This document shows positions 11,761-62,365 of a DNA stretch of 64,000 bases, one piece after another. Position numbers and translations under genes: made by a program. The DNA is taken from NCBI GenBank assembly GCA_963978905.1, contig OZ022256.1, positions 13,065,501-13,129,500 on the forward strand, written 5' to 3'. The DNA is from Trichostrongylus colubriformis (taxonomy: Eukaryota > Nematoda > Chromadorea > Rhabditida > Trichostrongylidae). Within the stretch, counting starts at the first letter, position 1. Each line of letters begins with the position of its first letter. The notes under the pieces were generated by a model. The model saw only the letters and a list, made by a program, of their open reading frames with translations. It did not search any database and was not told the origin of the DNA.

Positions 11761-14700
11761 ATGGATCAGGGAATAGAAATTCTTACAAACATCACGGCGA
11801 ATGAATTGAAGATGTTCCAGTCGTATTGCACCCATGAGACTCCTCGATCATCACCAGCCGCTCACTCGACGATCCCAGTTCGTTTCGAAAGAGGTCTTCC
11901 ATACTTGGTCATAACTCTGCCTTCGCGACAAGAGTCGTGCCAATTCTCGCTAAGGCCCCTGACGGATGATGTCGGAAGTTTCTGTGAACAACTCCATCGA
12001 GAAGATCGAGGTCTAGACTATGTTGCTGTGTACACCAATGGTAGGTTTTATTATTAATGTTCTATTTTCGTGGTGCAGTGACAAGTACCGCTCCCATCCG
12101 TATTGTTCTGGGTTCGAGATTGGGTTGGAAATCCGTTCGAGCTACCCAACCCTCCCATCCTTCTGAAGTCGGTGCACTGATGCCAGACTTCGGGGAAAAA
12201 AAAAACAGCGGTTTGTTGTGTGGGCCATATTGCATTCGATTGCCCCGATGGTTCCAAGTAGTATTAAAATGCGTGATGTTTTCGGAATATTTGTACTCTA
12301 ACTTTTTCCGCATTGCGATGATAAGTAATCACATGAACTGATGGAAAAGGAAATTGGTTAGACAGGGAATGTGGGAATTCGATAGATTTGAGCAAAAGAT
12401 TGTACTAAGACTTGGAGCACACACCGTACCATGTCCGAGCACTGCGCTATATGCATGTTCTCATTATGATGTAGTAATTAATTTTTGAATCATTTTAGAT
12501 GGGATACGTGTGGCCACCTCTACATCTATCGAACATCTGTTGCAATTCGGTGGATTTCGACTGCGGTTAAATGACCGGTATTATGATGTTACCGTGCCAG
12601 AACGAACATTAGAGGACCAATTAGGTAGTGATAGGTGAGTGAGTTGGTACATGAGATTGACAAGAAGACTTCAAAAATTTCCCTTCTAATTTTTGGGGTC
12701 TCATCTTTCGAAAATTTTTTTGGAAAGGCAAAAAGGTGTACATCCAATCGCTTTTGTTGTTGTTTTTTCTCTCTTTTGAGTGGATGTGTCAAAAGAAGTT
12801 CATAGGCTGCATTATCTCCAGTTTTCAGCAGCAAGGCAGAATATTACAGTTTCGAAATGTAGCTCACCTATTTCCCTCCCCTCTATATGTTTTGAGTATG
12901 TTGACGCTTTCGGTAGTTCCCTTCAGACTTCAAAATTTTTTCTAGATAAAACGACAATAGCTCCTCACGAAAAGGCTATAAGTACTGGTGCTCGGAAAAT
13001 TGAAAGCTGGGCCGGATGATACTTCTCTTTTAAGAATGTATAAGGGAAGTATTGGGTTGAGGAATAAGTTCCCGCGGTTTTTTTTTTCAATCCCGTTTTT
13101 CACATTGTTCGCACCATCTTTCAATGAAGCTAATATGTGTTTTCGATAGAAAGATAGATAGATAGAGCTTTCTTTGCTCTACGAAATGCTTCTGTCGTTT
13201 TTTCGATTCCTTCGACTACCTAATATTTATGAGGTTTTGAAGTGAAGTAAGCTGCAGACGAAAATCGGCGCTCTCGACACCTCATCTTCCTTCTTTCAGA
13301 TAGAGCTTTTCCAGCTCTGCAGTATAGTACTACTTTTTATTCAAATGGCCCAACTCTTTGCTGTTTTTAAGGCTCACAAAGGCAGTACTCGCAGAAGTGT
13401 CATTTTCGTTATCTTCTCTCCCTCGCCTACCATCGGGATCGAAGATATCCAGGTATGCATTCGATAGAGCTCTTCTTGCTCTACAAAATTATACCACTAC
13501 TCTTTTGAATCTTTTCGTATTTTAGCCTATAGAGATAAGTTTTTACCTGTTTTTCAATTCAAAATTGCGTAAAGAAAACAAATTTCTTGGCGGAGTGTTT
13601 TGAGTCACTCGATAGAGCTCTTTTCGCTCTACAAGATTTTGCTTACGGTTTTTGTTCGAACTGATTTTTGCCATTTTTTAGATCATTTAAAAGTCGGCGA
13701 AATCAAACATTTACATCACATGTTGTCTCGATTTCGTCGTCTTTTAAATAATCTAAAAAATGGCAAAAATCAGTTCGAACAAAAACCGTAAGCAAAATCT
13801 TGTAGAGCGAAAAGAGCTTTATCGAGTGACACAAAACACTCCGCCAAAAAAATTTGTTTTCATTATGCAATTTTGAATTGAAGGACAGGTGAAAACTTAT
13901 TCCTATAGGCTAAAATATGAAAAGATTCAAAAGAATAGTGGTATAATTTTGTAGAGCAAAAGAGCTCTATCGAATGCATACCTGGATATTCTCTTCGATC
14001 CCGATGGTAGGCGAGGGAGAGAAGATAACGAAAGTGACACTTCTGCGAGTACTGCCTTTGTGAGCCTCAAAAACAGCAAAGAGCTGAGCGATTTGTATAA
14101 AAAGTAGTATCATTCTATAGAACTGGAAAAGCTCTATCGAAAACATACACACACGCATTTTTTGATCCCGATGGTAGACTATGAAGATGAGGTGTCGAGA
14201 GCGCCGATTTTCGCCTGCAGCTTACTTCATCTCAAAACCTCATAAATATTGGGTAGTCCAAAAAGTTTTTTCGTATTTTCAAATACCATTTTTTCCCTCC
14301 AAACTGCTTTCCAGCAATCTCTTCTGTACATACACATGTAGTACAAGTCCACACGCATCTATAGGTATTATTGTCTTCCATCTCCCGGATAACCCTTTTC
14401 GGCAAAATAAACATATCAACGGTCAACCTCATTTTCAATACAAAAATTATAAAAAAATTTTCTTTCAATGGCGTTAGACAGGGAAAGGAAAAGGTGATAA
14501 TCCGATGGAGCAAGATGAGGGCTATAAGGTGGATGGGGCAGCAAATTTTATCCAAGCTCGAGAATTTTTTGGCGAGGCATTTTTTCACTAGTAGTAAACA
14601 TTTTTTAAAATTTTTTCTTTTAAAAAATTCTCGAGCTTGGATAAAAATTGCTGCCTTATAGCCCTGATCTTGCTCCATCGGATTATCACCTTTTCGTTTT

Positions 14701-17700
14701 CCTGTCTAACGCCTTCAAAAAAGAAAAATTGGAATTGAAAATGAGGTGACTTTTGATATTTTTATTTTGCTGAAAAGGGTTATCCGGGAGATGGAAGACA
14801 ACAATACCTATAGATGCGTGTGGACTTGGATATTCTGAGGATTTTGTCATGGCTAATATTATAAAGTGTTTATGTATTAAAAAGCACATATGTTACAAAT
14901 TCTCTATAACTAGCAATTTGGAAAGCATTGTTAATTTTATTAAAAAGTTCATTTGTTGTTTCAATGAATATTAGTAATGTATAATTCCTTTCTTATATTT
15001 AAGTTCCTAGTTAATCTCACCTAAGTTACTAAGATACTAATCATGTTTAATCACTATTTATCCTTTACCTTCTCGCCACATATTGCATTCTACTTGCTTC
15101 CCTTCTATGTTTCGCTGCCCCACCGCCATTTATCTGACCGGACTTAGCTGAGTATCAAACCTAGCAATTTCAAACTCTGGGCCTATTTTCTCTCTTTTTT
15201 CATTCTAACTATTTTTTCTTCTCATCTTGTATTCTTTGTTTTTACTAATTTCCTTCTCATTCGTTTGTTTTACCTTCTTTCAATCCTTTCTCACATTTAG
15301 TTTCTCTCACTTCTAGCTTTTTTTTCTATCATTTCGTTTAATCAGACTCAGACCTTCTCACACAATTGTTTGTTCACCAACCCCCCTCACTGAGGAGCCT
15401 CAGGGGTTGGTGTGGACAATGGTTCGTCTGAGGGTTTGAGGCGAAACGAACCATTTAACACACCTTAACAGTTAAAATTGTACTAACATTTATTTTTCAT
15501 TTATTGTACTACATATATATGTACAGAAGAAATTTTGTGGAAAGCAGTTTCGAGGGAAAAAGCGGTATTTAAAAATACGAAAAGACTTTTTAGACTACCT
15601 AATATTAGGTAGTCGAAGGAATCGAAAAAACGTAGAAGCATTTCGTATAGCAAAAAAAGCTCTATCGAAAACCTATATAAGTTTCGTCGAAAGATGATGG
15701 GAACAATGTGAAAAACGGGGTTGAAAAAAACCGCGGGAACTTATTCCTCAACCCAATATTTAGGAAATATCCCATCAGCTAAAGTTCAGAGCAAGGTCTT
15801 GAAGGAGTAATCACAGGAAATCCTATTGGAATGACAATAGACTTCTTCAATGAGTATTGGTTATTCGTTTTAGTCCTTGTGACTATTATTCTAAATGCAA
15901 TACTTAATGAATATTTTTTGCAGACTGCGTCAAATTGATGATCTGAAGGCAACTGTTGCCACATTGCACGCAGCACTATGTGTAGATGAATACAAAGTGA
16001 GTCTCTGTTGTATTCAGCTTTCCCCGTTTTTGAATGTTTTTCGTTTTTTGTTTCAAGCATTGAATGAATTCTTCTGGTAGATCCTTATCTAGCACCAATT
16101 GCCATTATTGGTATTAACCTGATCAGTGCTGCTTAGGTAGGCAGAGAAAGAAAGTTGATCCAGCAGCTAGAAAGGGCAGAGACCGAATTACGGCCCCTTC
16201 ATCAGGTATACCTGTTGTTTTTCATTTTTTCTTATTTTTCCTTTTGTATTATTGTTTATTGCCTTGTTGCTTTTGCTTGTTTATTCATTCACGGTTCATT
16301 GATTTTGATCTTCGCCATCAAGAAATAGAAAGTTCAGTTTGTTTTCTTACACTTCGCATCAATATCAGTTGTTTTGTTAATTGAATACTTATTTGGATGC
16401 AGTTTCTAGGTCATATATTTGCTGCAAATGTTAATTTGGATGTGGAACAGTTTTTCAGATAAAACTCACCATAGAGCGGGAATGTGAAGCGCACGCTGAT
16501 CGTGTCATGTGGGCAGGATTCGCAGCTATGGGTGTGCAGACAGGTGAGAGATTCTTTCTGCTACATATATCTCCTTTCGAGATGCCGAGTCAAGAACTCA
16601 CGTAATTTATGGGACGTCCATTTTTTTCAGTCCATTTTTTTGCGTTTTGGAATCTCAAAAGGCAAAAGCTAACCATGACATAGTGGTTGATTTTCGCAAA
16701 GACCCTGAGGGCGAGTGGCGACATTTCCCAAGAGCTAGAGAAGGAATCTCAAAAGTGGAGGTCATAACTGACTCTTTAGGTCGCCGCGAGACTTCGCGAA
16801 TTAGCGACTTGCGATTCTGTGATTTTGCGGTGTCGCGGCTGTGCAAGCGAGGTTGCGTGAGACGAGTGCCAGCTCCCGTCTCGGGGGGGGGGGGGGAGAG
16901 AACGAGGAAAAAAAAAGGTGATAGGAGCTTTCTTTAAATTAAAGAGGAAAGAGGTGATACCGAAAGTTTCCTCCAAAGGGGTACCGATGCCGTGCATTCG
17001 CTGACACGACGCTTTATTATTGGGCAGCATAATTCCTATCATTATAAACCGTCGTGGTAAAGGCAGTTTTGGGTCATGGATATGGTTCGGTCGTGGGAAT
17101 GGTTATGGTAGGCGCTGGTAAAATTACATCATCATAGTGGAGTAAGGAGAAGGGTAGGAAGTATATCAGTGTTGAGGAAGTAGAATGTTTCTGTGGGTGG
17201 GGAAGCTATGAGTGCCATTAGGTCAGAGATTCGCTTGTCTGCGTTTGGCGCGCGACGCGATATGTCTAGCTAGTTGCACCGTAGTGGTTGAATCCTGAAT
17301 CTTGCGCCTAGAACAAGGCGTGAGCACCGTCATCGCTTCAGAACCAATCCAGTATGGCGCGCATAGCTCTCACCATTGCGTCGTACACTTAACGTCACGG
17401 AGCGTATTTTTTGTCCCAATAGCACACACCCGTGGGTGAAATGATGGGACAACACACTACCCACTTGCCTTACCGAACACCAGTGATCACGCAGCAAACG
17501 AGATGAAATAAGAAGTAAGGTAGATACTCAGGGCTCGCGTCAAAAATCTGTGAACATGTAATTGATAAAGAAAATTTCTAAAGTATGAATTAAGGTCTAT
17601 TCGCACGGTTAACATGGTGGGAGTATTCATGGGATATCATGGAACCAGTTACGTACTTCGCCACATACGCTACCGTAGTCGCCACTTTTGGTTATTATCT

Positions 17701-20700
17701 GTACACACGACAGGTTAGTTCCAAGGTCACCAAATTTTTTGTGCGGGTAAAATATATTTATATATCTGTGGTCGCTTTTTTATTTTATTATCGATTCCCA
17801 TTATTGACAGTACTGTCTTGCAGTCGTTCGAATATCCCAATGCTCGGGAGCGATTATTTACAAAACAATTCTATAGACGGGCTATTAAACAAGGGTTCGA
17901 CATTGAGAAGTACAATAAGCTGGTCACAGAGGTATGTGCATGATGTTTATGGGGAATAATTGACTTTTTTGACATAATGATCTCGTTTTATGTTTTGACT
18001 TTGCCCAGTCTATTATAGGGGTACTAGTGGGAATCCCTTGGTTTTTTATACTATGACTCATTCTCGATAGTATTAGACGGAAAAGTAATTCTCATTGTGT
18101 TTTTCTTCCTTACAGCCATGACCGTCTCCCCAGTTGACATCTGCGGCAGCCCCGCCCCTTTTATTCCGTCCGCCTGGAGGTCCACTTTTTTGTCCAGCCA
18201 TTTTTTTTTTGAGTCCCGACATAATACTGACTTATTCATTTTGTTTTTGTGTATGTTTGCTGACAGACTATTTGAATAATATTACAAGTCGATATGAGAC
18301 ATGACTATAATTTGTTGACATATTCAACGCCGCAAAATTTATATTAGCTACTACCATAGGATTTCTTCAGTTTTGAACGGGCATCTTGTAGGCCTCAACA
18401 AAGCCTACAACAGTGAGAATCTGGCAACAGCTTACAAGGAATTCCATTCTAGGGTTTCTCTTTAAATGTAGCTACAGAAAAACTTCTATCTATGAAAGAT
18501 ATTCGTGATTAATGGTACCAAATGCCAACAGCTATTAGATGAACAGTGTGAACTTTGGGCACATTTTTATATTTTTTATGATTCCTTTCAGGATGGGCGT
18601 CAGGCGCGATGATCCTGTTACTAGAGTGCCTAGACTCGCATTCGTTGATTTTGGACAAATTACGCGCCGCAAAAAGTACAGAAATGGTGACAGTATGTTT
18701 ACGGACCCAGTAATGATGAAGGCATTAACACGTTTCGCGGTAGTATGTGTTCAGGCCCAGAATACGAAGGAAGTGGATGTTGATTTCGAGATCCATTGGT
18801 TTCCGTGAAATGTAAACAATGAGCAAGTATACCCACATTCTCTTGTCAACGGGTGTGTGCCATCAGGTCAGAAAATTCGCGTGCCCGCATGCGACGCGCG
18901 TCGCGATGGTGCGAGCTAGTTGTGCCGTATTACTTGGGTCCTGAGACGATTACACCTCGACTAAGGCGTAGGGCACCGTCATCGCCTTAGGACCCATCCA
19001 ATACGGCGCGGATACCTACCATCACGTCACAACCTAACGCGGCAAAGGAATTTTATGTCTTAATGGCACACAGCCAGTTTTCAACTCGTAGTGCTGAAGA
19101 CCTGTCGTATTTTATAGTGTAGTGCATAACCGATACTTCTTGAACGGCTGGCGATGTTTTTCTAGTGAACGAACGTACAAGGTTCCGACTCCATCATCAA
19201 ATCGAGTTTTGTTTTACAGCCACATGAAAGTATTGTGATTGTAGGCAGAGGCTCGGGATTAATGTATTGCGCCGCATTTTCTCGAAAGACCATGGCTGCT
19301 CGTAGTGCTGACCTGTCGTATTTTATAGTGTAGTGCATAACAGATACTTCTTGGACGGCTGGCGATGTTTTTCTAGTGAACGAACGTACAAGGTTCCGAC
19401 TCCATCATCAAATCGAGTTCTGTTTTACAGCCACATGAAAGTATTGTGATTGTAGGCAGAGGCTCGGGATTAATGTATTGCGCCGCATTTTCTCGAAAGA
19501 CCATGGCAGATGCGCTTAACCATGTGTATCCTGTAACGCAAAATCTGGGTGGACATGCTTCGAACAGCTACCATAATTCAACTGGAAAACGTGCTTCTCG
19601 CTCCTTGGTGCCATGCTAAGTAGCTTGAACGTGACAACCAACAGCACGTTTGCTCAATTTCAGGTCTGTCGCGTATTCAATAATGAATGGCAGAGTTGTC
19701 TCAGTTTGCCCCAAAGTCCTCCTGACACGCTAAAATCGCTTCCACAGTAGTGGGTGTGGTGGAATGAGCGGAAGGGGGACAAGCCTTGGAATATATTGAT
19801 TGGATTCGTGAGAGTCGAAAAGATTCGGTGGGATTTTGGACTTTGGATTTTGAGAGGCTTTAAAAATGAGAAGGTTGACCGACTCACACTTGCACAACCT
19901 CTCGAGCAATGTTTGGTGAAGTACTTGTTGTTCTGTTCGTATATTCGGGTGGTAGTGAGTTGCTGCAGCGTATTAATAAGGAGGTTTTTCTAATGATAGT
20001 GACTCGCTGCAGCGAATGAATGAGGAAGTTTCTTCTAACGACTTAGCTACATAGCACTGGCGAAAGCACACCACGTCATGCCGTGTTGTCCATGTGTCTC
20101 GTTCTGGCCCATGTGGAATTTTACCACACTTCAGGGAACAGGTTTGCCAGGGATTAAACACTTTATGAAAACACTTTTGCGGAGGACATCTCTGAACGCG
20201 TTCTGCATTTTATATAAACCATTTTCTATCAAAACTCTTTTTTTGATACATTAACATTACATTCTGATAATTAAAGCGATTCTCAGAAAGTAGTTTTGTT
20301 TTGAATCGTAAACTAACCCAAGTGAAAGGAAAACTTCGGGTAGGGTGCGGTGCGGTTTGGCTAATATAATAACCATGCCACGAAAATGGCGATACATATA
20401 TATTGGGAGCAATTTCAATGCTCCGTTGCGATTTTTTGAGAAGCTTCTAGGCGAGGTGACCTCGGCGCAATGACGAAAATCGTTGAGCTCATTCGCCCGT
20501 CAAACAATGCGAAAATTTTCTGGAAAATTGGATGCAGCTGGGAAGCAGACCAGTAAGAAGAAAATAAACTGGATGAAGCTGTGGGCATATGTCAGGCTCA
20601 AAGGGTCAGGTGATTCCGATTTATCATTGTACCGATAGCGCTGAAACTCACCCAAAACTTGAGTTTTTTCTGCAATTCCTTAGTTCTTATGAAGTGAAAA

Positions 20701-21073
20701 GTGTGGAACTCTCCAATGGTCAATAAAATTGCAGTATTTTGATATATCGGAACCACCTGGCCATGAATGTAGTACACAGATCAGACCGGTACCAACTGAA
20801 TGTTTTCATACTTTCAGAAGTTTTTATTTAATTATTGTATCCCCTTAAAGAGAGCAAGCGAGGCCGCAATTGAATTATTCTTGTCTGTTTCCTTCTTTCG
20901 GAGTATGCACAGACAAATTCAGATAAATCACACTGAAATTACCACGTGATGTTAAGGTTGAAGAGGTTCGTCGACAGTTGGCTCGAATTCGCGATCCTCT
21001 TTTTCAACATCTACCAGTAAGCTACTTAACGAGGCTTGAAGATGACACAGCCACCAAGGAGACAGGCGGTTAG
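11761..21073 (+). CDS. mcu-1: Mitochondrial calcium uniporter pore subunit (MCU), eight visible exons
   Basis: This is the pore of the inner-membrane Ca2+ uniporter. Exons: 11761-12040, 12499-12634, 15924-15996, 16137-16205, 16459-16543, 17595-17713, 17824-17931, 20957-21073 (TAG). Joined, they give 328 residues in one frame with no internal stop. Residues about 47-140 match the MCU N-terminal domain ([21 protein letters not shown]). The first coiled coil follows, then TM1 at about 202-221, the selectivity filter WDIMEP at 227-232, TM2 to about 254 and a C-terminal coiled coil ending in [11 protein letters not shown]. The DIME Asp228 and Glu231 that bind Ca2+ are present. Exons 6 and 8 use unusual TTAAG acceptors instead of TTTTCAG. 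The visible start MDQGIEIL is not a targeting sequence, so an upstream exon is probably missing or 11761 is not the true start. Intron 2 (3.3 kb) and intron 7 (3.0 kb) are filled with repeats. Confidence 0.93.
14249..15602. mobile_element. Mariner fold-back (family A, copy 1) inserted in the palindrome's right arm
   Basis: The TIRs TTGGGTAGTCCAAAAAGT and TTAGGTAGTCTAAAAAGT are flanked by TA at 14247-14248 and 15603-15604. The mirror arm of the host palindrome preserves the empty site (CATAAATATTAGG), which proves the insertion and its TA duplication. The element is two inverted copies of a mariner 3' half meeting near 14600 (CTCGAGAATTTTT facing AAAAATTCTCGAG). Related copies are at 48369-49039 and 59293-59956. 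This copy is longer because of an extra insert at about 14829-15512. Confidence 0.88.
14829..15512. repeat. Insert inside the mariner fold-back, with two strong tandem hairpins
   Basis: Comparison with the 48-kb and 59-kb copies shows about 680 extra bases between GTGTGGACTTG and CTACATATATATG. The interior is pyrimidine-rich (15050-15370). It then forms two hairpins in a row: CACCAACCCC with GGGGTTGGTG at about 15373-15410, and AATGGTTCGT with ACGAACCATT at about 15419-15457. No coding frame is seen. It may be a third nested mobile element. Its ends are not obvious TIRs. Confidence 0.55.
17211..17430. repeat. Palindromic MITE in mcu-1 intron 5
   Basis: The imperfect ends (GTGCCATTAGGTCAGA, and TTTTTGTCCCAATAGCACAC at the right) enclose GC-rich inverted arms containing GCGACGCGATATGTCTAGC and its partner near 17350-17390. 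The same structure occurs at 18853-19073, with fragments near 39330-39480 and 60963-61093. Confidence 0.6.
18385..18808 (+). pseudogene. Coding-like debris in mcu-1 intron 7, family unknown
   Basis: Three frames together read like decayed protein: [19 protein letters not shown] near 18395-18450, [20 protein letters not shown] near 18520-18580, and an open frame to 18808 containing [19 protein letters not shown]. Stops and frame changes separate them. It is unlike MCU and would be spliced out. It could be a fragment of a duplicated gene or of a retroelement. Confidence 0.3.
18853..19073. repeat. Palindromic MITE in mcu-1 intron 7
   Basis: The inverted ends GTGTGTGCCATCAGGTCAG and TATGTCTTAATGGCACAC enclose inverted GC-rich arms (GGTCCTGAGACGATTACACC and partner). 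It is the clearest member of the family also seen at 17211-17430. Confidence 0.7.
19085..19506. repeat. Tandem duplication of about 211 bp in mcu-1 intron 7
   Basis: The two copies run at about 19085-19295 and 19299-19506 and start CTCGTAGTGCTGA. They differ at only a few positions (for example ATAACCGATAC versus ATAACAGATAC), so the duplication is recent. Confidence 0.9.
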
Positions 21074-22300: not shown

Positions 22301-22400
22301 TCTTTATTTTTCAGCGTTAGGATTGTTCTTGAAAATGTGGAACTGTGTTTGAAAGAAATGTTTTCGTGTCACAGAGGGCCTTTTCAAAAATTCATGGTAC

Positions 22401-22920: not shown

Positions 22921-22944
22921 TATAGTGCAGTGTACTGCACTATA
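22921..22944. repeat. Perfect 24-bp palindrome
   Basis: TATAGTGCAG pairs with CTGCACTATA across a 4-base loop. No function can be inferred. Confidence 0.6.
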
Positions 22945-32681: not shown

Positions 32682-33409
32682 TTAGGTCTATGCAGAATAA
32701 ATGGCCGAAACGTAATTGGCCATAACTTCGCTCAGACACAACTTTATTTGTCGAAATAAAAACCATTCGAATCTACAGAATTTTGCCAACGATCTGGTAA
32801 GGAAAATATACCATCACGATCAAATTCTGGATTGCGAGAATCAATAAAGTCAAGAATGGCATTTTTACCGTGCATAATTTTTCTGCCGCAGGTTTGCATC
32901 GGGAACCCGGAAAAAGTGGTAATCCGTCAGGGATAGGTCTGGGGGATAAGTGGGATGAGGGAGAGGCTCGATGCCTAACTGCATCATTTTTTTACTGGGT
33001 GCGCAAAACAACGCAAAACCCCACAGTTCGCAAGTCACCCGGCAGAAACTGATCGAGACTCTCCCTCACCCCCCTTATTCCTCAGACCTATCTCTGACGA
33101 ATTACCACTTTTTCCCGGTTCTCGATGCAAACCTGGGTCAGAAGGAGTACGCCGAAACGATGCATGTTAAAAATGCCATCGTTGACTTCATTAATTTTCG
33201 CAATCCTGAATTTGATCATGATGGCATATTTTCATTAATTTTCGCAATCCTGAATTTGATCATGATGGCATATTTTCTTTACCAGATCGTTGGCAATGTT
33301 GTGTAGATTCGAATGGTTTTTATTTCGACAAATAAAGTTGTGTCTGAGCGAAGTTATGGCGTTTTGAAAAAAGTAGTCCGTTTTGGCCATTTATTCTGCA
33401 TAGACCTAA
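32682..33409. mobile_element. Mariner fold-back (family B, copy 1)
   Basis: The TIRs TTAGGTCTATGCAGAATAAAT (both ends) are flanked by TA at 32680-32681 and 33410-33411. The element is two inverted copies of a mariner C-terminal half. The right arm reads PHPPYSSDLSLTNYHFF and then DSNGFYFDK on the plus strand. The left arm carries the same region inverted, with TDYHFF. The right arm therefore has Asn in place of the third catalytic Asp while the left arm keeps Asp. A 43-bp tandem duplication (ATTAATTTTCGCAATCCTG) lies at about 33190-33275. Confidence 0.88.
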
Positions 33410-35844: not shown

Positions 35845-36310
35845 TTGAAGGCGCACCACTCTATAATCAGTCTAGTAGTTCACTTTCTTGGGGCAAGTAG
35901 GTCCCTGGGTAACTGCTCACGCTGTATCTTTGCTGTGGCTGCACGGAGCACCCAGGGTGTTGTGCCTGATCGGACACAACCAAGCCACGCCCACCCAACT
36001 GAAACACAGCTGGCGGCAGACAACCATTTCCAATGTGGAAAGCTGCTTTCATCATTGAAATAGCTGCTTCATCAAATTATCGTCTTTCATTGCAAGTTCC
36101 CTTCTCTACGTGAGCGCACGGAAAGTTGCTCGTGTAAGGCTAGGTGTGATTTGGTTGGGTTAGCGTGGCTTGGCTGTTTTCACGCAGGCACAACACCCTG
36201 AGGGTGCACCGTGCAGCCGTAACAAAGATTCACTCTGAGTAGTTGTGCACGGACCTACTTGCCCCATGAAAGTAAACCTATAATCTGATTATCGCATGGT
36301 GTGCCTTTAG
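35845..36310. mobile_element. TIR element, TTAAAGGCACAC family, second copy
   Basis: The left end TTGAAGGCGCACCACTCTA and right end CGCATGGTGTGCCTTTA are inverted. The interior shares ACTTTCTTGGGGCAAGTAGG, repeated in inverted form near the right end, and a CACCCAGGGTGTTGTGCC block with an inverse near 36190. It is non-coding. Confidence 0.65.
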
Positions 36311-48121: not shown

Positions 48122-49242
48122 TCAAAGGCACACTTCACGATGAACTATAAGCGTTTATGAAACTGAGGTACGAAAGTAGAGGTCTTGATTCACGCACCAG
48201 AGAAGAGAAACGAACAGTAAGCATAAGGAACGTCGAAAACGAGGTCCCCTGAATACAATCCTCGTACGAGTACTACTGCCTAGATCCAGACCCTGCTAGG
48301 TATTATTCAAACAATATCACCTGCTCCGTCCTGCTAACATTGTCTTCATCATTAGAATTTCTGTCATATTGGGTAGTCTAAAAAGTCTTTTCGTATTCTT
48401 AAATACCGCTTTTTCCCTCCAAGCTGCTTTCCAGCAATCTCTTCTGTACATACACATGTAGTACAAGTCCACACGCATCTATAGGTATTGTTGTTTTCCA
48501 TCTCCCGGATAACCCTTTTCGGCAAAATAAACATATCAACGGTCAACCTCATTTTCAATACAAAAATTTTCCTCTGAATGGCGTTAGACAGGGAAAGGAA
48601 AAGGTGATAATCCGAGGGAGCAAGATCAGGGCTATAAGGTGGATGGGGCAGCAACTTTTACACAAGCTCGAGAATTTTTTGGCGAGGCAATTTTTCGGCA
48701 AGTCTTCTCGCTATTGAAAAAGTGACTCACCAAAAAATTCTCGAGCTTGGATACAAAATGCTCCCCCATCTACCCTATAAACCTGATCTTGCTCCATCGA
48801 ATTATCACCTTTTCCTTTCCCTGTCTAACATTCAAAGAAAAATTTTTGTAATGAAAATGAGGTTGACCTTTGATATGTTTATTTTGCCGAAAAAGGTTAT
48901 CCGGGAGATGGAAGACAATATACCTATAGATGCGTGTGGACTTGTACTACATGTGCATGTACAGAAGAGATTGCTGAAAAGCAGTTTAGAGGGAAAAAGC
49001 GGTATTTAAAAATACGAAAAGACTTTTCAGACTACCCAATATGTTAACTCTTCATGATGGTTCGCAGCTTCCTTGGCCACGTGAACGCCACTTTGGAACT
49101 CGGTTCATCCAACGCGGGGCGTAATTCGGTTCTGTGGGTGCGGCTCGGTCGAAGTCGAGTGGGCCTATCGCTGCATGAGTGCAGGATCTATCTGCCCAAA
49201 GATGGTGGGTCACTATTTTGATGACCGCGTGTGTGCCTTTAA
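48122..49242. mobile_element. TIR element, TTAAAGGCACAC family, split by a mariner fold-back
   Basis: The left part 48122-48368 and right part 49042-49242 match the two halves of the intact copy at 24251-24742 (CCTCGTACGAGTACT on the left, CCTTTAA end on the right). The mariner fold-back 48369-49039 sits between them, so it inserted later. Confidence 0.72.
48369..49039. mobile_element. Mariner fold-back (family A, copy 2)
   Basis: The TIRs TTGGGTAGTCTAAAAAGTC and TTGGGTAGTCTGAAAAGTC are flanked by TA at 48367-48368 and 49040-49041. Two inverted copies of a transposase 3' half meet near 48700, with the CTCGAGAATTTTTTGGCGA junction shared with copies 1 and 3. The plus strand of the right arm reads LPHLPYKPDLAPSNYHLF and the left arm reads [17 protein letters not shown] on the minus strand. 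The right arm has Asn in place of the catalytic Asp. No N-terminal domain is present. Confidence 0.9.
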
Positions 49243-49249
49243 CATAGCC

Positions 49250-50560: not shown

Positions 50561-50646
50561 TCAATGCAGTGCTTTTCAACAGGCGTCGCAAGGGATGACA
50601 GCCACCTAAGCTTGCACAATAACAGCGTTAACAACAACACATACAT

Positions 50647-50797
50647 ACGGTCCATTTCCCAGCGCCTGGCAGGGCGAGGCCTACGGGCTTGGATGAACGT
50701 GTGTCGAACGCTCCCACACCGCCACACACTCTCACTCTCGCCACTCACCCAAGTCCGTAGGCCACGCCTTGCCAGGCGTTGGGAAATGGACTGTATT
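50647..50797. repeat. Inverted repeat, 46-bp arms
   Basis: GGTCCATTTCCCAGCGCCTGG at about 50649 is inverted as CCAGGCGTTGGGAAATGGAC ending near 50791. The arms pair over about 46 bp with few mismatches, and short outer arms (GTGCTTTTCAACAG, CTGAAAAGCG) suggest a larger element of about 50570-50830. Confidence 0.65.
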
Positions 50798-52140: not shown

Positions 52141-52499
52141 CAAAGTACATATATTAAATCAAGCCTTTCACGGAGTATTTTGCACACATCGTGACTGTCG
52201 TAATGAATACTCTAACAGGTCATTGTCAATAAATATAATATGTACTGCGCAGGTGTGCAGATAAAAAAATCGGATTATATATGGGGATAATATCTAGTTG
52301 ACGATAGTGTGAAGATAGGCAAATTGCGAACGAACTCAACTTTTCTGCGTGAATCGCTCTTCAATTGCAGGAGATGTATTTCTGCAACAGTTTTCAGACC
52401 GTTTGCAATACGCGAGTAAGCAATCTCCGTAAGCGCAGCACAGTATAAGTGCACACCAACACGAGTGAACTTTGTATGTAAAAACTGGTGGTGCCCTTG

Positions 52500-53150: not shown

Positions 53151-53406
53151 ACCAAAGAAAATAATCCATTTGTACAATTTACTTTTACCTCAATTTTGAA
53201 ATCGTCCTTATGATCCAGAAACTCTATGAAATTTATTTCGAGAAATTTATTTCTATGAAATTTATTGCTGCATTGCTCCTCCATCATCTGCTGGCTTCAC
53301 AGCATATCAGCTACAAAGTTTTGTGCATATAGATCACCCTTATCGACAGCTACTGCGAATCTCGGTGACAACTTCGTTTGAAAATTTTCTATTACTCTTG
53401 TTTCAG

Positions 53407-53526
53407 GTGATAATGCTTATTGAGTTAGCCGTGGTGTTTTTAACGTTCGCAGTGACGCATCCAAAAAAGTTGGGACACTCGTTTGATGGCTTTCGAGGAC
53501 GAAGTGAGACGTTCGCATGCTATCGA
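53407..53526 (+). CDS. Candidate internal exon with a membrane segment
   Basis: The acceptor TTGTTTCAG and donor GTGAGT bracket exactly 120 bases, open only in frame 0. The peptide begins with a hydrophobic stretch (IMLIELAVVFLTFAV) followed by THPKKLGHSFDGFRGRSE. It looks like a transmembrane helix and its cytoplasmic edge. Flanking exons were not identified and no family is recognised. Confidence 0.4.
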
Positions 53527-53529
53527 GTG

Positions 53530-54165
53530 AGTTACGCTGTTTACGCTTAAAGATGACGTACATACTTTGCGACCATTAGAGGACCTTGCCACGCTTCTGT
53601 ACAAGCTATAGCGCTATAGACCTGGAATAAAGTTTGGACCAACTGAAGATACAGCGCCATATTGCGGCACTTGAAATAACCCTAGGAAGTGGGAACTGGA
53701 GCGAATGAAACACTTTCCACGTGTTATTAGGATTTTTTACATAACAAGTGGAGCTTCTTCCCTTTCCGAAGTGAGCATCGTGACACAGTGAAGTGCAAAA
53801 TCTCTCTGTGGTCTATAACAAACAACATAACATAACAACGGATAACAAACGATTTATGTAAGCAATTAGGTCAGCGAGATATCAATTATAGACCAACAAG
53901 TTGATTCATGTGTCATAAGAAGAGCAACGAGATCAACACATCAATGCAAGGCAAGGAGAGATCACCTGCCTCAGGCGTAATGATGAGAAGGCATCACGCC
54001 TGTTATACAACAGAGGAACATGTCTGTGTCGGGGGCGAACCGCCGTTAGGTAGATACGAAGAAGGGGTCGACCGTCCTCCGTCGTAGCTGCCAGACGTCT
54101 CTTCGATGGTCTGCGCTCGGCCCTAAAAAGGGTTGAATCATGGGAAAGAGAGAGAGCTGGGCGCG
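53530..54165. other. No gene seen
   Basis: Low-information sequence with short direct repeats (CATAACA/GATAACA near 53820) is followed by a GC-rich stretch near 54010-54130. Nothing is recognised. Confidence 0.35.
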
Positions 54166-54167
54166 CT

Positions 54168-54234
54168 TACACCTCTCCCTTTACATCAAGTGCGTCCCGG
54201 ACTCGATGTAAAGGGGGGGGGAGGAGGTGTAAGG
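54168..54234. repeat. Imperfect inverted repeat with G-run
   Basis: CTTACACCTCTCCCTTTACATC faces GATGTAAAGGGGG and GAGGTGTAAG at 54172-54232. It lies just beyond the 3' end of the helicase remnant. Confidence 0.5.
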
Positions 54235-56280
54235 TCAAAAATCGGAGCTTACCATCGGAAAGTGATTAATCACGAATATGCCGTTCCAAATCATTTGTTG
54301 GAACAATACTTTGACCGACCTGGCCCAGTCGACGACGCGCTTCCAGAACGGCACGGCTTCCAGCGAGGCGACGTGCCCGAGGGTGAGTTGACCGTGACCA
54401 CATCGAGATATGGTGACCTTCAACCTCTTGTAGGCCGAAGAAATCAGGTGAGGTGGGAGAGAACTCGGTACGGTTAGTTAGAAATATGACTTCTTTTTCT
54501 CTTCCTCGCACTGAGTACACGGTCGTGAATTCCACTTCCAGCTGCTCCAGTTCTCCCTTTAGGTGTAGCCATGCTCTCTGTAGAATAAGGTGACGCAGAG
54601 CTGAGCAAGGCTGAAATTTCTGGAAAGAAGGAGCTTTATCGATCGTATACAAGCGCGCCCCTCATTGACATTGAAGTGGGCCGACTAGTAGCTTTCACCG
54701 AGGTGCCATCTACGTTAATAAACATAAACGGCACGGCGAGATTGGGTAAGTGCATAGACGACAGAAGCAGTCACCGATGAAGAGCTGGCGCGGGTCAGGG
54801 AACCGGGTACGCCCGCCGATGCGGGTTCCGGGATGTGCGATGCCTTATCACTGATCACAAGCTGAACATACTCTTGTACTGAAGAGTATACCGCCATCGG
54901 GATCCATTATGTTGAGCAGCGATGCTGTAGGTAAACACATGATCGCCGGACAATGCATCCTAATCATATGTCGTACCATCCTCTTCACGGATCGCGACAC
55001 AGCTTTCTCCGCTATCTCGTACTCACGCTGCTCCTACTCGGACATTTGGAAGAACCGTTCAGGGTCCAGAACATATAAACCTCAAGAAGTTCTTGCTGCG
55101 TCTAAAAGCCGGGCAGAACTCCTTCTCGTCCTCGGTCAGCTGAGTCTCCATGGTTCTCTCTTTAAGAATTCAGAATATCATTTGAATCGACCCGTGAGAT
55201 GCACATTTTCGTTCTCTGCCCTGTCGGAGAGATACCGCACTACCCGCTGTGACCAGAAGACATCCAGCGAGAGTAGGATTTCCGAAAGTTGGGCACCAGC
55301 TGCATTGGTTGTCGCCGTCACGATCACAGCCGATGACGGTCGAGTCGCAATAATAGCACCCAATGCGGTCTCACCTGTACCGTTAAACAGCGTGAATGGC
55401 GACTACTGGATGGTTGCCAATGGCAAGACGAACCTCGATCTGATCGTTCGGCGGTTGATTTGGACCGTCTTACCTCGTATCTGAAACAAAGAAGCCACGA
55501 CCACAAAGATCACGGCGCGATCCTCCTGTGATGGGCAGAGCTGGGTGAGGCCGTATACCGTATCTACGATCTTGCAGGCTAGAGAGGAGCATCTAAATCG
55601 GCACAGATGTGCGTGCGTGATATAGCTTCGTAGATGGGGTTGGCCTGGTTTGTTTGCTTATTTAGGCGAACTTCGATCTACGCGAACGTCACTACAGGAG
55701 TGTTGCTTCCATGCTTGCATAACTTCTAGGACCGTGTGAGACCAGGAGAACGCTTCAATGGTGATCCGTAGCGCTCGCTGCTCGGTCGAAACCTCGACGT
55801 TGACCACCTTTGCGAGAGCTAGGGTGTTTGATGCTTGGACGCGGAGTGCCACCGGCGGTCCATACGGCTTTCATGGGCATCCCTTTGAGGTTGAAAGTGA
55901 GCTGCGCTGAAAAGTGGTGGTTGCGGGGCATGGAAGCGATGATGCGATGCCAACGCCTATCGCCATCGACGGAATCGAGTGTGACCAGAGAGGAACACGC
56001 TATATCGTACACCTTAGACATATGTATCTTCGCGTTTTCGTGCTGCCTGTTGTAGTTTTCGAATCGATCGGCTCTTTCGAATCAGTGACTGTCAACAACG
56101 CACGTTCCACCAAGTTCTGCTTCCATACTCGAAGAGACACAATCCCTTCGTCCGGATGCATAAGCAGGAACGGCCACATAGTTGCTTGCGTGCGGCTATG
56201 GATGCCGTTGGCTTTGAAAGCGCATAGTGCAAGGAACCGTGAGCGCGTTCCAGCCTTGACCATCTCGTTCTCCTTTACGC
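54235..56280 (-). pseudogene. Decayed SF1 (UPF1-like, AAA_12) helicase gene
   Basis: On the minus strand the pieces follow the order of a superfamily 1 helicase across at least six frame changes and several stops. An N-terminal region (56263-55658) comes first. Then GTGETALGAIIAT near 55390 is a Walker A motif with Glu in place of the ATP-binding Lys. TATTNAAGAQLSE (motif Ia region) follows. SVKRMV and MCLPTASLLN lie near 54960-54920, and ISDKASHIPEPA near 54855 is Walker B with the catalytic Glu changed to Lys. SVRGREKEVIFLTNRTEF near 54510 corresponds to motif V, and SRCGHGQLTLGHVASL near 54400 to motif VI. Such helicases are multi-copy in strongylid genomes as I recall them. This copy cannot hydrolyse ATP and is broken. 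The higher GC content than the surroundings fits old coding sequence. Confidence 0.82.
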
Positions 56281-56289
56281 GGTTTTAGG

Positions 56290-57260
56290 CGAACTCACAA
56301 TTAGAGTGCGTCAGTGCGACATCGTCGCGGGCACCTTCGGACACTGCGCTCTGCTACGCTGCCGCACCCCTACGCGGAGAAGCTCATGAAATGGATCCTA
56401 GAACTCTTCGACCGCTGGGTGACTGGGCGCTTTCATGCTACAGGATGATAATAGGATGATAGCGCCCAGATCTGCTCATGCAGTCAGGAAGCCCGGTACG
56501 CGGCGCCGGTGTGCAAATTATGAAGGCGGGGTCTTAGTGGTAGGTATCACGCAAATGGTCCGGGAACGAGTTCTCAAGGGTCGACAGGAGCCATCATGAG
56601 TTCGAGTAGCGTACCTGCAGCGGCATATTTGCGGTTATTAAAGTGGTGCAAGAGGAGGAAAAACGCCAGGTCTCATCTGCTTCTGTCCGCTCTTATGTCC
56701 CTGAGCATGGAAGCTATTGAATATTGCTAAATTCAGGAATTATCATAACTTTTGCACTGCACAAATGCCGCTGCAGGTACACATCTTCAACAGTCGTGGT
56801 AACATAGCTGTGAAGTAGGGAAGATTCTGTAAGAAGTGGAAGACGGAGACTTGGAAGAATATGAGAGCAGTGAACTGCCCAGGGAACTTTTCGGAAAAGC
56901 CATTGAAATAACGCACACCTTGCCGTGTACACACTTATCGAAGGAAACGGATAGTGTGGACATGCAAAAAAATGAGTGCTTGTCCTTCCACTCGATTCTA
57001 TCTAGAATCAAAATTTACAGCTACATCGAAATTTGCCCGTGTCAAATGCAATGTTTCAGTTCCATGATAACACGAAACACTGCTTAACCGCCGGTGGCAG
57101 AACTCCTGAACATGGATTCAGATTTCGCTATTTGTATTTATTTCCTTATCACAAGCACACGGGACTCATTTTTGCACGACATCGCTGGAGACTGAGGGTG
57201 GAATCTCACACAGTCTCTGCGTCGTTCCTTTACAACGAGACTTGGACAGATGTTGATCTT
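56290..57260. other. No supported gene
   Basis: Open frames are short and overlap on both strands. 56390-56460 resembles 47960-48040 (CATGAAATGG, GGGTGAC, GCTTTCATGCT), so a dispersed repeat is likely. Confidence 0.35.
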
Positions 57261-57269
57261 GGATCATAA

Positions 57270-57436
57270 TTCTTAATACTTCGGTACGGTGACATGCGTA
57301 AAAACGAGAGTCCATCTCGCATCTCGAATGTGTATGTTCGAGATACCACAAAGCTTGTCGATGGTACAGAAATAAAAGAGCTGCCCGATGTTTCGCAAAT
57401 TTATCACAGAACACCTTTCATGTTCTCCTTGAACTA
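57270..57436 (+). pseudogene. Coding-like segment, perhaps dipeptidyl-peptidase-like
   Basis: Open from 57270 to a TAG at 57434, reading SNVYVRDTTKLVDGTEIKEL and then HRTPFMFSLN. The YVRD/VDGTEIKELP pattern recalls a strand of the S9 dipeptidyl peptidase propeller, but this rests on memory of the fold and is weak. No good donor follows. It may be a broken exon. Confidence 0.25.
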
Positions 57437-57530
57437 GTTCACATGCAAGCTGATGGATCGAAGAATGCTTTGGTATGGAGCTTATCCTCATTAAGGGATC
57501 AGCTTGCTTGAAATAAGTTTCGTGTTTCAG

Positions 57531-57663
57531 GAAGTATTACCCGCTAATTGTGCAAAGCGCTAATTGGATTGCGAACGAAGGGATCTACAAAATAGATACT
57601 GGAACTGAAGAGCTAACTCCAATTCACTATGATCCCGAAGCAACAGATTTTTCTACTGAATGA
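57531..57663 (+). CDS. Candidate terminal exon, unidentified
   Basis: The acceptor GTGTTTCAG at 57530 is followed by 43 open codons to a TGA at 57661. The peptide contains YYPLIVQSANWIANEGIYKI and then DTGTEELTPIHYDPEATDF. It lies about 95 bp after the 57270-57436 segment and could belong to the same former gene. Confidence 0.3.
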
Positions 57664-57669
57664 AAATGA

Positions 57670-58730
57670 CTGTTATACTGTGGCTGATTACACTATCATG
57701 ACAGCGAAATCAGTAAGGAATTTCCGAAAGGATCACTTTTAATCCTTGAAGAACTGAAATCTCTCACTCACACATTCTAGACTTCTATAGTGATGGCTGT
57801 CTACAAAAGGATGATGGCTGTCACGGAGAAAGCAAATTCATTATTAGTCGTCAACAAAGCCTTAATTAGAGTTCAGAGTTGAAAATCGCACATGCGTTTC
57901 ATGCGGTTAGGCCATTAAACAACTGCATGAAATGGATATGATACAAATTGATCAGGCAGTGATTTACCTAATCGATACGTGTTCCATCCTTTCCGTCCGA
58001 TTGCCTTATCACCGTGTCGCCTAATCGCCTGATCGCCCGATCGCCTGAATCGCGAACTCATACCTACGTCTTGCCCGGTGCTCATCTGGGGACTAGCCCG
58101 TTCTCTTCCGTACAGCAGGAAAATTCAGTCGGATCGCCAACCTGCCCGGGCTCTCAGATAGTGATAGTTGATCGTAGTGATACTAGTTTGGCAAGCGCAC
58201 AGTTCTACGCGCATCACGCTATGGAGCTTTGTGATATGGGCATCACCACAGATTTTACTGCATCAATCGGGATCGTTGCTCTGGGTTCTCAAGACTTACT
58301 CCCAGGTCCGGGCAGGCATTCAAGGCATTCGGAGAAGTGTGTTTCTGGTAAACACGCATAGTGGACATCTCAGTATTGATTAGTCGGTATCGATCGATGT
58401 TGCGTAATTGTGCAATGTTTAGAAGCAGAACTGTACGATAGTTAAGCTGGTTTTTTTTTATTCGTGGGTCGACTTTAAAACGGAAGTGAGGTACTTACAT
58501 ATGCTCCTTCTTCATTGACATAGAGCGTGCCTTCATGAACATGGACTGTCAGATGATTTCTCTAGTACCAATGAATTTGCTGTGATATATATCGTATATT
58601 ATGTGAATCATAGGAATTTCATTATCTGTCCAATATTTATACCGAATCAAGGAGGTTTCACGCTTAATTTGATATCTTCTCTCTTTGCCTGTATTCCCGC
58701 TACAATTCTTTCCATTTGATGCATTTGAAG
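57670..58730. other. No supported gene
   Basis: The plus frame at 58014-58361 is open but unrecognised. Its start overlaps CG-rich short repeats (TCGCCTGATCGCC). Confidence 0.3.
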
Positions 58731-58732
58731 AG

Positions 58733-59101
58733 TTAGTACACTGTATTGTCTTTCGGTTCGGCGTATATTCTATAGAAGAAGCATCCAGAACTTAGGTGAA
58801 AGCAATCACACCCTGGGCCTCCGCAAGATTCGATGCAGTGGGTTATACCAGGAAATGCATTGCCGATGGCTAGTTCAGGTAACATGGCTGTTGTGTAGAC
58901 GTCTGCACACTTATATCCAGTGGAGGATCCCGTGTGGGGACATCTGCAGCCATCGACAACTCTTTCACAAACATTTCTAGCACGCCTCAGTAATGCTCTG
59001 TCGCAAAGCAATCGTAGGCCTTGCCAATGATATTTTACATGCACTGGAGTTGAATTGTCTTTTTGGAATGTTAGACATGCGTCTTTTTTGAATGAAAATC
59101 T
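58733..59101 (-). pseudogene. Retroelement envelope fragment, phlebovirus-G2-like (BEL/Pao type)
   Basis: The minus strand is open over about 120 codons and rich in cysteine: CRCPHTGSS, then ESCGGPGCDCF and SSGCFFYRIYA. This pattern matches the glycoprotein carried by some nematode BEL/Pao retroelements and related to phlebovirus G2. It is a fragment: no signal peptide, no C-terminal membrane anchor, and no gag, protease or reverse transcriptase was found nearby. No LTRs are seen. It is an old genomic copy, and the family call rests on motif recall. Confidence 0.55.
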
Positions 59102-59292
59102 TAATCATAGATGCAACTTCAACGTTGCTAGCGTTCCAGTCGCAAAAAAGTTACAAGTGAAAACCCAAGTAAAAAACCAATTGGCCGAAGACTTTTGAGC
59201 GCTACTGTATATCACTCTATGAAAAAGCACACAACCTTCTCAATGACGAAGTGGGGGCCTCACTACAAATAGTTAAAATAGCGGACTATGTA

Positions 59293-59956
59293 TTGGGTTG
59301 TAGGAAAAGTTCTTTCGTTTCTTAAAAACGTGTTTTTTCCCTCCAAACTGCTTTCCAGCAATTTCTTCTGTACATATACATGTAGTACAGGTTCACACGC
59401 ATCTATATGTATTATTGTCTTTCATCTCTCGGATAACCTTTTTCAACAAAATAAACATATCAAAGGTCAGTGACATCTTCATTATCGAAAGTTTTTCTTT
59501 GAATGGCGTTAGATAGGGAAAGGAAAAGTTCATAGTGCGATGAAGCAAGATCAGTGCCATATGGTGGATAGGGCGGCACTTCCCATTCAGGCTCGAGAAT
59601 TTTTTGGCGACTCTTTTCATATTGGAAAAGTGACTCGTCAAAAAATTCTCGAGCTTGAATGAGAAGTGCTGCCCCAATCACCTTATAGCCCTAATCTTGC
59701 TCCATCGGACTATCATCGTTTCCTTTCCCTATCTAAGCCATTCAAAGAAAAATTTTTGTTAGTGAAGATGACATTGACCCTTGACATAATTATTTTGCCG
59801 AAAAAGGTTATCCGCGAGATATTAACGATAATACCTATAGATGCGTGTGAACTTGTACTACATGTACATGTAACATGTACAGAAGAAATTGCTGGAAAGC
59901 AGTTTGGAGGGAAAAACACGTTTTTAAGAAACGAAAGAACTTTCCCTACAACTTAA
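59293..59956. mobile_element. Mariner fold-back (family A, copy 3)
   Basis: The left TIR TTGGGTTGTAGGAAAAGTTC and right TIR (inverse TTAAGTTGTAGGGAAAGTTC) are flanked by TA at 59291-59292 and 59957-59958. Two inverted 3' halves meet near 59620 with the same CTCGAGAATTTTTTGGCGA junction as copies 1 and 2. The right arm reads SPNLAPSDYHRF on the plus strand. The TIRs differ from those of copies 1 and 2, so this copy is an older or separate branch. Confidence 0.88.
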
Positions 59957-60029
59957 TAGCTGTTCTAAAGAGAATTCCGCAGATAATGCTCTTCGAAATA
60001 CTGTTCCCTTCATTGATCTCGTAACTCCC

Positions 60030-60300
60030 ACCTCCTTACGGGGTGAGGGTCGCGAGGGTCGAATTTCCGCTTCGCGGCGGTGCACTCGCGGCGCCACCAG
60101 TACGACTCGCCGTATCGATTGCCCTTGGGGGCCGGCCGAGCGTGACGTCGCGTCTGCGCTTCCACTCATGCCACACTGCCTCGCTTGAAGGCTGCCATGC
60201 CCTGCCACTGGCACTTGCACCTGCCGCTCCGCTCGTCGCGCCCGGCCGCGCGGAAATCCGACCTCGTGGCCCCCACCCTCTTATGAGTAGCGAATCACTT
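60030..60300. repeat. GC-rich repeat related to the 61-kb TIR element
   Basis: GGTCGAATTTCCGCTTCGCGG resembles GGTCGAATTTTGGCTTCGCGG near 61138 in the 61122-61645 element. Both strands are open here because of GC content. No protein is called. Confidence 0.45.
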
Positions 60301-60962
60301 TCAGTGCATTTACTAATCGCATGTGAGTAGGTACCCATCTCCAAGGCTATGCTCTTTGATGTAAATAATGGTGCGTTCTCAAGGTGTTAATGATCTTCAT
60401 GGTTTGCGATCCGAAATTGAGCGTGCCATCATGCCAATGCGGTTTGCATTGGAATTGCCTGCGTGGCGGATTCGAGAAATGATTTAGATAAATTTCTCAC
60501 TTTTCGATACAACTTACAACAATACCAGTTTGCATAATTGAGCAAAAATTTTATTAAAACAAGCGCCTTCTACTTTCACAGAAGGCTCCCTTCCCAACCT
60601 CCACGCAATTGAGCTACGAACATAAGGGGGAATGAGACAAAGGAAACCACTTCCCATACACAGGTTTTGACTTGTACGTGTTTCCCAGCGCGTCATATTA
60701 ATGAAGTATCGATCGGCGCCGCATGGAACTGTGAGATGTGGCAGTCATACGCAGTCTATGATACCTTACTTGGATGCGAGGCTTGCTCGAAGGCTTAAGG
60801 CTTCGTAGGTCGCGTGAGCGTCTTTTAATCTAAAACAAGCTGCGTGCGTAGCTTTGCTTGAACCCTTGTGTTATTAACAAAGGAGGTGTTTCTTTTCGAT
60901 GCTGCTGATAATCAGGGGTGAGTTCTACCAAAACAAAAAATTTGAATCGCGGAGTCCGAAGT

Positions 60963-61093
60963 GTGACGCGATGAGTGCGGGTGCCATATAAGTTGGGCGT
61001 GCGGCGTTGATTGTGTCCTGCGTCTTATTCCAGTCGTAATTGCTCTAGGATCCCACTAATATGGCATCCCTAGCTCGTACCTATGGCGTCGCG
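60963..61093. repeat. Fragment of the palindromic MITE family
   Basis: GACGCGATGAGTGCGGGTGCC is inverted near 61062-61093 (GGCATCCCTAGCTCG, GGCGTCGC). The arrangement resembles the arms of the MITEs at 17211 and 18853. Confidence 0.45.
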
Positions 61094-61121
61094 CGGCGAC
61101 ACGACTGATTCGGTGGCGAAA

Positions 61122-61645
61122 GTGTGGGGGTCGATTGGTCGAATTTTGGCTTCGCGGTGCCGTCAGTACGAGTCGTTTGGAATTCCGCTCAAAACGTAAT
61201 TCGCTGGTACCGTGAGGGACCTCTAAAGATTGCACCTATTTTTAGCAATATGTTGTGAATTAGAATTCCTTAAAACTGCAATATGTGCTCTTCTCCATCT
61301 TCCTTCAGAGCTCATAAAGACAGAGCTATCACTGCTTCTATTGTACCTGAGGTTGTTGTTGATTGTTCTGTTATCTTGCTTTTCTTCAACTGTTAATGCT
61401 CCTGAAAAACTTCTATGATTCACTCACTGCGAAATGAGAGAGAACAATAACAGCTAAATTACCTTCAATATTCCAGTTCTCACGGAAAACATAAGAACAA
61501 AAGCAAATAGCCGCCCGCGCTGAAAATAGGTGCAATCTTTGAAGGCCACTTACCGTACCAGCCCATAGCGTCTTGAGCGGAATTCCATTTAACTCGCACT
61601 CGCCGCGGGCGGTTGCACGAAAATTCGACCAATCGACCCACACCC
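61122..61645. mobile_element. Long-TIR element with 9-bp target duplication (Mutator-like candidate)
   Basis: The left arm (61122-61245) starting GTGTGGGGGTCGATTGGTCG is inverted at 61520-61645. A direct repeat GTGGCGAAA flanks it at 61113-61121 and 61646-61654. No transposase is present. Related arm fragments occur near 30080-30190 and 60040-60110. Confidence 0.7.
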
Positions 61646-61681
61646 GTGGCGAAACGAACCATTCACTATTCTACAATTATA

Positions 61682-62365
61682 TTAGGACTGTGCAGAATAA
61701 ATGGCCAAAACGGAACACTTTTTTCAAAACGCCATAACTTCGCTCAGACACAACTTTATTTGTCGAAATAAAAACCATTCGAATCTACATAACCTTGCCA
61801 ACGATCTGGTAAAGAAAACATGCCATCATGATCAAATTCAGGATTGCGAAAATTAATGAAGTCAATGATGGCATTTTCAGCATGCATCGTTTCGCCGAAC
61901 TCCTTCTGACCCAGGTTTGCATCGAGAACTGGGAAAAAGTGGTAATTCGTCAGAGAAAGGTCTGAGGAAGAAGGGGGGTGAGGGAGAGTCTCGATCAGTT
62001 TCTGCCGGGTGACTTGCGAACTGTGGGGTTTTGCGTTGTTTTGCGCACTCAGTAAAAAAATGATGCAGTTAGGCATCGAGCCTCTCCCTCACCCCCCTTA
62101 TTCCCCAGACATATCCCTGACGGATTACCACTTTTTCCGGGTTCCCGATGCAAACCTGCGGCAGAAAAATTATGCACGGTAAAAATGCCATTCTTGACTT
62201 TATTGATTCTAGCAATCCAGAATTTGATCATGGTGACATATTTTCTTCAACAGATCATTGGCGAAATTCTGTAGATTCGAATGGTTCTTATTTCAACAAG
62301 TAAACTTGTGTCTGAGCGAAGTTATGGCCAGTTATGCTTTGGCCATTTATTCTGCACAGACCTAG
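61682..62365. mobile_element. Mariner fold-back (family B, copy 2)
   Basis: The left TIR TTAGGACTGTGCAGAATAAA and right TIR CTAGGTCTGTGCAGAATAAA are flanked by TA at 61680-61681 and 62366-62367. It is the same structure as 32682-33409 but in opposite orientation. The arm with the longer reading frame is on the minus strand (SDLSLTNYHFF, then DRWQGYVDSNGFYFDK), again with Asn at the third catalytic position. The other arm keeps Asp. Confidence 0.88.

Follow-up and report, generated by a model that had tools for sequence, protein, structure and literature searches.

Our results suggest that two unrelated mariner families of Trichostrongylus colubriformis have given rise to non-autonomous, palindromic, MITE-like elements, in each of which a 3' half, beginning near the codon of the second catalytic Asp and ending with the 3' TIR, would have replaced the 5' half in inverted orientation. 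Such an element has a 3' TIR at each end and lacks a transposase. A stronger 3' TIR is most likely the reason why both families kept this half, and we give this reading as a whole a probability of about 60%. The elements were recognised in a 64,000-nucleotide stretch of contig OZ022256.1 (hereafter the window, which begins at C1:13065501), and the genome searched comprised 331 Mb in 52 contigs.

Five of these elements lie in the window. Family A includes A1 (14249-15602), A2 (48369-49039, the common subtype, formed by two 3' halves of a single mariner) and A3 (59293-59956). The best match to A3 elsewhere in the genome is 87%, and A3 is a member of an older family-A subtype, with a different TIR. 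Family B is represented by B1 (32682-33409), which exceeds the 684-bp family-B consensus and by eye shows a tandem duplication in its right arm, and by B2 (61682-62365), in the orientation opposite to B1. The near-complete palindromes and their outer ends, as given in the original prediction, are real: self-complementarity ranges from 69 to 88.5% (A2, 88.5%; A3, 84%; B2, 74%; B1, 69%), A1 being self-complementary at 79% over 14344-14828 with outer arms at 14249-14346 and 15504-15602, and a TA stands on either side of all five. No palindrome at E<1e-8 was found across 20 dinucleotide shuffles of the window, which rules out a chance origin. That A and B are unrelated, as had also been claimed, agrees with the lack of any A-B nucleotide match at E<1e-5 and with a longest exact match between A2 and B1 of 10 nt. 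The elements have the TA target duplication and the ~30-bp TIR of mariner derivatives, and TA is present at both sides in 29 of 38 A/B loci read, as cut, the other nine having a mutated or trimmed end.

A1 is a palindrome of ~680 bp, but it holds a ~675-bp insertion in its right arm (14829-15503, the gap between the A1 matches to A2) and itself sits at a TA of X1, a third kind of palindrome, which is likewise a TA element and whose TIR is mariner-like (13052-15757; 1,350 bp without the nested A1; 84% self-complementary). Within X1, A1 is bordered by a duplicated TA and the empty site is visible in the opposite X1 arm, showing that A1 entered X1 as a transposon does. X1 carries repeated GATAGAGCTC...GCTCTAC-like motifs, and a search of its inner palindrome (13211-14261) for transposase similarity found none. 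By eye, X1-like sequence also occurs in palindromes of two other loci, L011 (2654-3684) and L022 (2886-3679). Three further palindromes are found in the window, at 976-1359, 35848-36307 and 50645-50796; our palindrome census gave no mariner match for the first two, and the third is below its length limit. An open reading frame with the Pfam collagen repeat looks like a cuticle collagen, in keeping with a nematode genome.

Each arm of the A and B palindromes holds the 3' portion of a gene for a mariner transposase; it starts near the codon for the second catalytic Asp and extends as far as the 3' TIR, and the N-terminal half is absent. This bears out the earlier assignment to the mariner C-terminal part without the N-terminal domain, as the peptides match the catalytic domains of solved SETMAR and Mos1 structures. 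The family-A peptide matches SETMAR at 1.5e-11 and Mos1 at 3.8e-8, and the family-B peptide, whose query came from an early B consensus with mixed orientations, matches SETMAR at 7.9e-7 and Mos1 weakly (0.1), so that this similarity is weaker for B than for A. Pfam returned one sub-threshold DDE_3 match, for one of four peptides, and the family-B arm translation contains PHPPYSPDLSLTDYHFF. The similarity is therefore to the catalytic domain of DD34D mariners, and neither family has a complete transposase with the DD34D triad. Counting by eye against intact mariners, the longer family-A arm with its spacer begins about four codons past the second Asp (DNARPH), and the longer family-B arm begins about at this Asp, where it has Asn. 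The shorter arms, counted in the same way, begin about ten (A) and thirteen (B) codons past it. When the arm starts are placed in this way on intact mariners from this genome, the A and B breakpoints fall within some ten codons of each other. The spacers are as expected of the parent, reading ASLPTIEKVTRQKILEL in the A2-type consensus and LGAQNNAKPHSSQVTRQKL in the longer arm of the B consensus, with HDNARPHIAKMTRQKL in an intact mariner.

The original prediction had proposed counting the central junctions over the whole genome. Allowing up to 3 mismatches in 43 nt, the A2-type junction has 150 genome matches and the B junction (32980-33022 of the window, + strand, corresponding to C1:13098480-13098522) has 478, with 0 for the reversed-pattern controls. 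A match on both strands denoted a palindromic copy in 40/40 places for A2 and 40/40 for B1, the scored places being the best 40 of 2,075 and the best 40 of 1,628 first-look candidates, respectively. These recurrent junctions, together with the insertion of A1 into X1 with its duplicated TA and empty site, support the view that the palindromes move as units, and the sharing of junctions rules out an independent origin of every copy. The elements are short, have no complete transposase and are present in many copies, as expected of MITEs, and they would be amplified by transposase supplied in trans. The further claim of one junction per family stands for B1 and B2 and for 28/28 A2-type copies, which show scattered substitutions, but the centres of A1, A2 and A3 differ from each other; these centres are probably homologous. 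For B, the evidence for a single origin is good; for A, a single origin is likely but less certain, as the centres and TIRs of its subtypes differ. Among the family-B copies aligned, which were chosen as best matches to B1, 30 of 31 lie at 0.6-1.5% from the consensus (B2 at 5.0%), which points to a recent burst, and the 28 A2-type copies lie at 1.6-4.3% from theirs.

Regarding the formation of the palindromes, the alignment of 30 distinct family-A elements, of which 28 are A2-type, gives a consensus in which the arms are identical at 318/318 nt and only ~40 nt of the centre are asymmetric. The arms were thus identical at the origin of the A2 subtype, and this exact identity indicates that one 3' half was copied back on itself, for which snap-back or template-switch repair after excision would be the simplest route. 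The simplest centres, found in the A3-type copies L103 and L105, consist of an arm, a ~20-nt spacer and an arm; the spacer looks like coding sequence of a parent, with a shift in L105 caused by one absent base. With a few minor exceptions, these centres equal the A2 centre minus a 16-bp near-tandem duplication, the extra 16 bp of A2 being a near tandem copy of the adjacent arm. The family-B consensus arms are 89% identical over 640 aligned columns, so that B may have started out with arms that already differed. The differences between these arms are distributed 7:8:9 by codon position, in 7 synonymous and 14 nonsynonymous codons, a neutral-looking pattern, as would result either from decay once the palindrome had formed or from two source copies that were already dead.

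This leaves room for another route, in which two 3' ends were joined by deletion between neighbouring copies rather than by snap-back of one element, as proposed for the Rhodnius prolixus elements Rpmar17 and Rpmar49 in the accessible text of PMC4678618. Family B lends itself to this idea, as its consensus arms differ by 11% plus indels and yet 30/31 copies remain 0.6-1.5% from that consensus; nevertheless, its neutral-looking differences may have accumulated after formation, and in the A2-type consensus the arms identical over 318 nt, with a short spacer continuous with one of them, speak for a single element copied. We therefore hold deletion between neighbours to be a serious but improbable alternative to the copying back of one 3' half. 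Another way to a small mariner derivative is seen at L077 (2885-3147) and L090 (79-654), where a B-like 3' piece is enclosed by perfect 31-bp inverted ends ~576 bp apart and is not palindromic.

The two family-A subtypes diverge mainly at their ends. Their divergence amounts to 32% and 19% in the two outermost windows of 30 alignment columns (26% together), against a median of 5% (range 0-22%) in the 11 inner ones, and this divergence near the TIR, affecting both ends together, is possibly a new observation. No copy with one end of each TIR type was found among 37, although 32 of these 37 had been fetched as best A2 or A3 matches, which disfavours mixed copies. By eye, the TIR of L106 is intermediate at either end, and in L107 a reversed A2-like centre lies between ends of the A3 type. 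It is possible, although less likely than not, that the two ends of natural 3'-3' mariners evolve in concert through arm-to-arm copying during repair. Homogenisation of the arms would then spread a change in one TIR to the other end, so that the element could switch to another end sequence, and perhaps to another helper transposase, at both ends simultaneously. The separate formation of two palindromes from two parent lineages would also explain the pattern. A copy's own other arm is its nearest relative in only 3/6 A3-type and 3/28 A2-type copies, which gives little sign of recent arm-to-arm copying in single copies. The codon differences between the subtypes are synonymous and nonsynonymous in the ratio 4:4, which favours neither account.

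The genome also contains intact full-length mariners, possible candidates for the transposase source of the palindromes. A 345-aa open frame was found in 34 of the 150 HTH_48 matches listed, 32 of them at one score, and five copies (L093-L095, L099 and L100) encode 339-aa transposases from the first Met between near-identical TIRs; these mariners form a recent and possibly active family. HTH_48 and Transposase_1 domains were both present in one copy of this 345-aa type and in one copy of another intact type. No parent of A or B was recovered by nucleotide match among 30 N-terminal-domain loci. A chimeric probe for A gave no clear full-length A parent among the best 150 of 19,461 genome candidates: the first five matches listed (83-88%) belong to the family of the probe donor or look like it, and the other 145 lie at 46-61%, among which C7:22172776 (59%) and C8:35816463 (61%) may be closer relatives. 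The same probe retrieved another set of equal-scoring rows, with open frames mostly of 358-370 aa. The B probe obtained 5 matches in a public protein database, the best at 56%, none of them a parent. The L077/L090 piece was rejected as a B parent, being only about 70% similar to B, and a search of phage records found nothing.

Both families retained the same, 3', end, a point that the original prediction did not remark on and that suggests a simpler cause than silencing. If the 3' TIR were the end bound more strongly by the transposase, a 3'-3' element would be expected to outcompete its 5'-3' parent. In Mos1, the 3' IR is the high-affinity end, with A/T in the right IR where the left has G/C, and two right IRs raised transposition 26-fold in vitro, according to the accessible text of PMC4505599; about 20 times more transposition with two 3' ITRs is given in that of PMC3419177. 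In contrast, Mboumar-9 prefers its left IR (PMC4505599, accessible text), showing that the 3' preference is not universal. In the present genome, the 3' TIR is A+T-richer than the 5' TIR in 19/21 copies of the first full-length type (equal in one, less A+T-rich in one) and in 3/3 copies of the second, that is, in 22/24 copies of both types together, with nearly equal TIRs in 4 further rows. Both TIRs were obtained at 28 of 36 loci and no TIR pair at 8, and the aligned pieces include a few flanking bases. As a full-length parent was recovered for neither A nor B, the end-strength step rests on analogy with these mariners.

It should also be considered that these are ordinary palindromic MITEs which kept 3' halves by chance, palindromy or shortness rather than end strength driving their spread. 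In our census of ~331 kb, 43 of 56 palindromes match mariner transposase, always in the C-terminal part (43/43) and never in the N-terminal part (0/43); of these 43, 36 had been fetched as A/B copies and five came from the original prediction, only those in L027 and L064 having been met by chance. The remaining 13/56 (e.g., 976-1359, 35848-36307 and ones in L014, L027 and L101) have no transposase similarity, and so there may be other reasons that favour palindromy in itself. Likewise, most MITEs are palindromic throughout, and complete palindromy is not needed for mobility and may reflect other constraints, as far as the accessible text of PMC2642840 goes. The four cases of a retained 3' end, namely the two families described here and two in Rhodnius, are statistically weak, a sample too small for a test. 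Nevertheless, A and B both broke beside the second catalytic Asp, at nearly the same place, and the two Rhodnius lineages took the same direction, so that we regard retention by chance as rather unlikely and favour a stronger 3' end.

The least probable explanation is the one put forward originally, that double-stranded transcripts of the palindromes feed small RNAs against active mariners. Its structural premise holds in modelling: predicted RNA folds reach -481 kcal/mol for A2 (mean of -153 for 20 shuffles) and -448 kcal/mol for B1 (-182 for shuffles), such that transcripts would form long and extreme hairpins. Within families, 25 (A2-A3) to at least 59 (A1-A2, B1-B2) exact nucleotides are common to two elements, making self-targeting possible. 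Nevertheless, exact matches of the five palindromes extend to no more than 15 nt with 15 full-length mariners and 16 nt with 29 N-terminal-domain loci (the two sets overlap by five loci, and L064, which contains an A copy, was left out). This is below 22 nt, and exact-match silencing of the examined full-length mariners was rejected; the silencing of active relatives is thus not supported. Piwi-type targeting tolerates mismatches, for which reason the lack of a match above 16 nt is not decisive, and a role against relatives outside these two sets, or against the palindromes themselves, is conceivable. Since the spread of TA-flanked units is explained without silencing, we consider hairpin silencers highly improbable and retain end strength as the preferred reading. 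For Mos1, a silencer is reported to lie within the final 300 bp of the transposase ORF (PMC4777549, accessible text), and this region corresponds approximately to the part duplicated in the A and B palindromes. If the end-strength reading is true, it would explain which half survives and would provide a simple rule for successful non-autonomous mariner parasites.

Palindromic non-autonomous elements related to Tc1/mariner, such as Tc6 of Caenorhabditis elegans, are known in nematodes. Bandit, from the hookworm Ancylostoma caninum, is a DD34D mariner of ~1.3 kb encoding 342 aa, with TA insertion and numerous nematode copies (PMC2041818). Unlike the A and B palindromes it is full-length, and the string "palindrom" occurs 0 times in the accessible text of that paper. 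The palindromy of most mariner MITEs is left unexplained in PMC2642840, to the extent of its accessible text.

A rearrangement related to that of the nematode palindromes is already known from the bug Rhodnius prolixus. There, the 3' part has taken the place of the 5' part in the non-autonomous Rpmar49 and Rpmar17, with 13 and 140 clean independent copies, respectively (Table 1 of PMC4678618); the A and B palindromes likewise carry a 3' part, including coding sequence, in place of the 5' part. According to the same paper, Rpmar17 breakpoints vary around one region, similarly to the centres that vary in family A. In contrast, Rpmar49 and Rpmar17 measure 970 and 922 bp, and their TIRs span 221 and 57 bp, whereas the present elements have 660-730 bp and are palindromic over almost their whole length. 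That paper states that most Rpmar17 copies did not arise from one another by transposition, whereas here single junctions recur in 150 and 478 places. The words "affinity" and "asymmetr" are absent from the accessible text of PMC4678618, which therefore seemingly does not invoke end strength.

The closest functional counterparts are the laboratory Mos1 donors with two right ITRs, which, as described in the accessible parts of PMC3419177 and PMC4505599, have two 3' ends as the elements described here. Those donors are artificial constructs, whereas the palindromes are natural elements of other mariner families whose end strength we infer. The dynamics of genome invasion by an element with two 3' ITRs were considered "of great interest" in PMC3419177 (accessible text), and the palindromes of T. 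colubriformis look like nature's own two-3'-ITR experiment, carried out twice in one genome and present in hundreds of copies.
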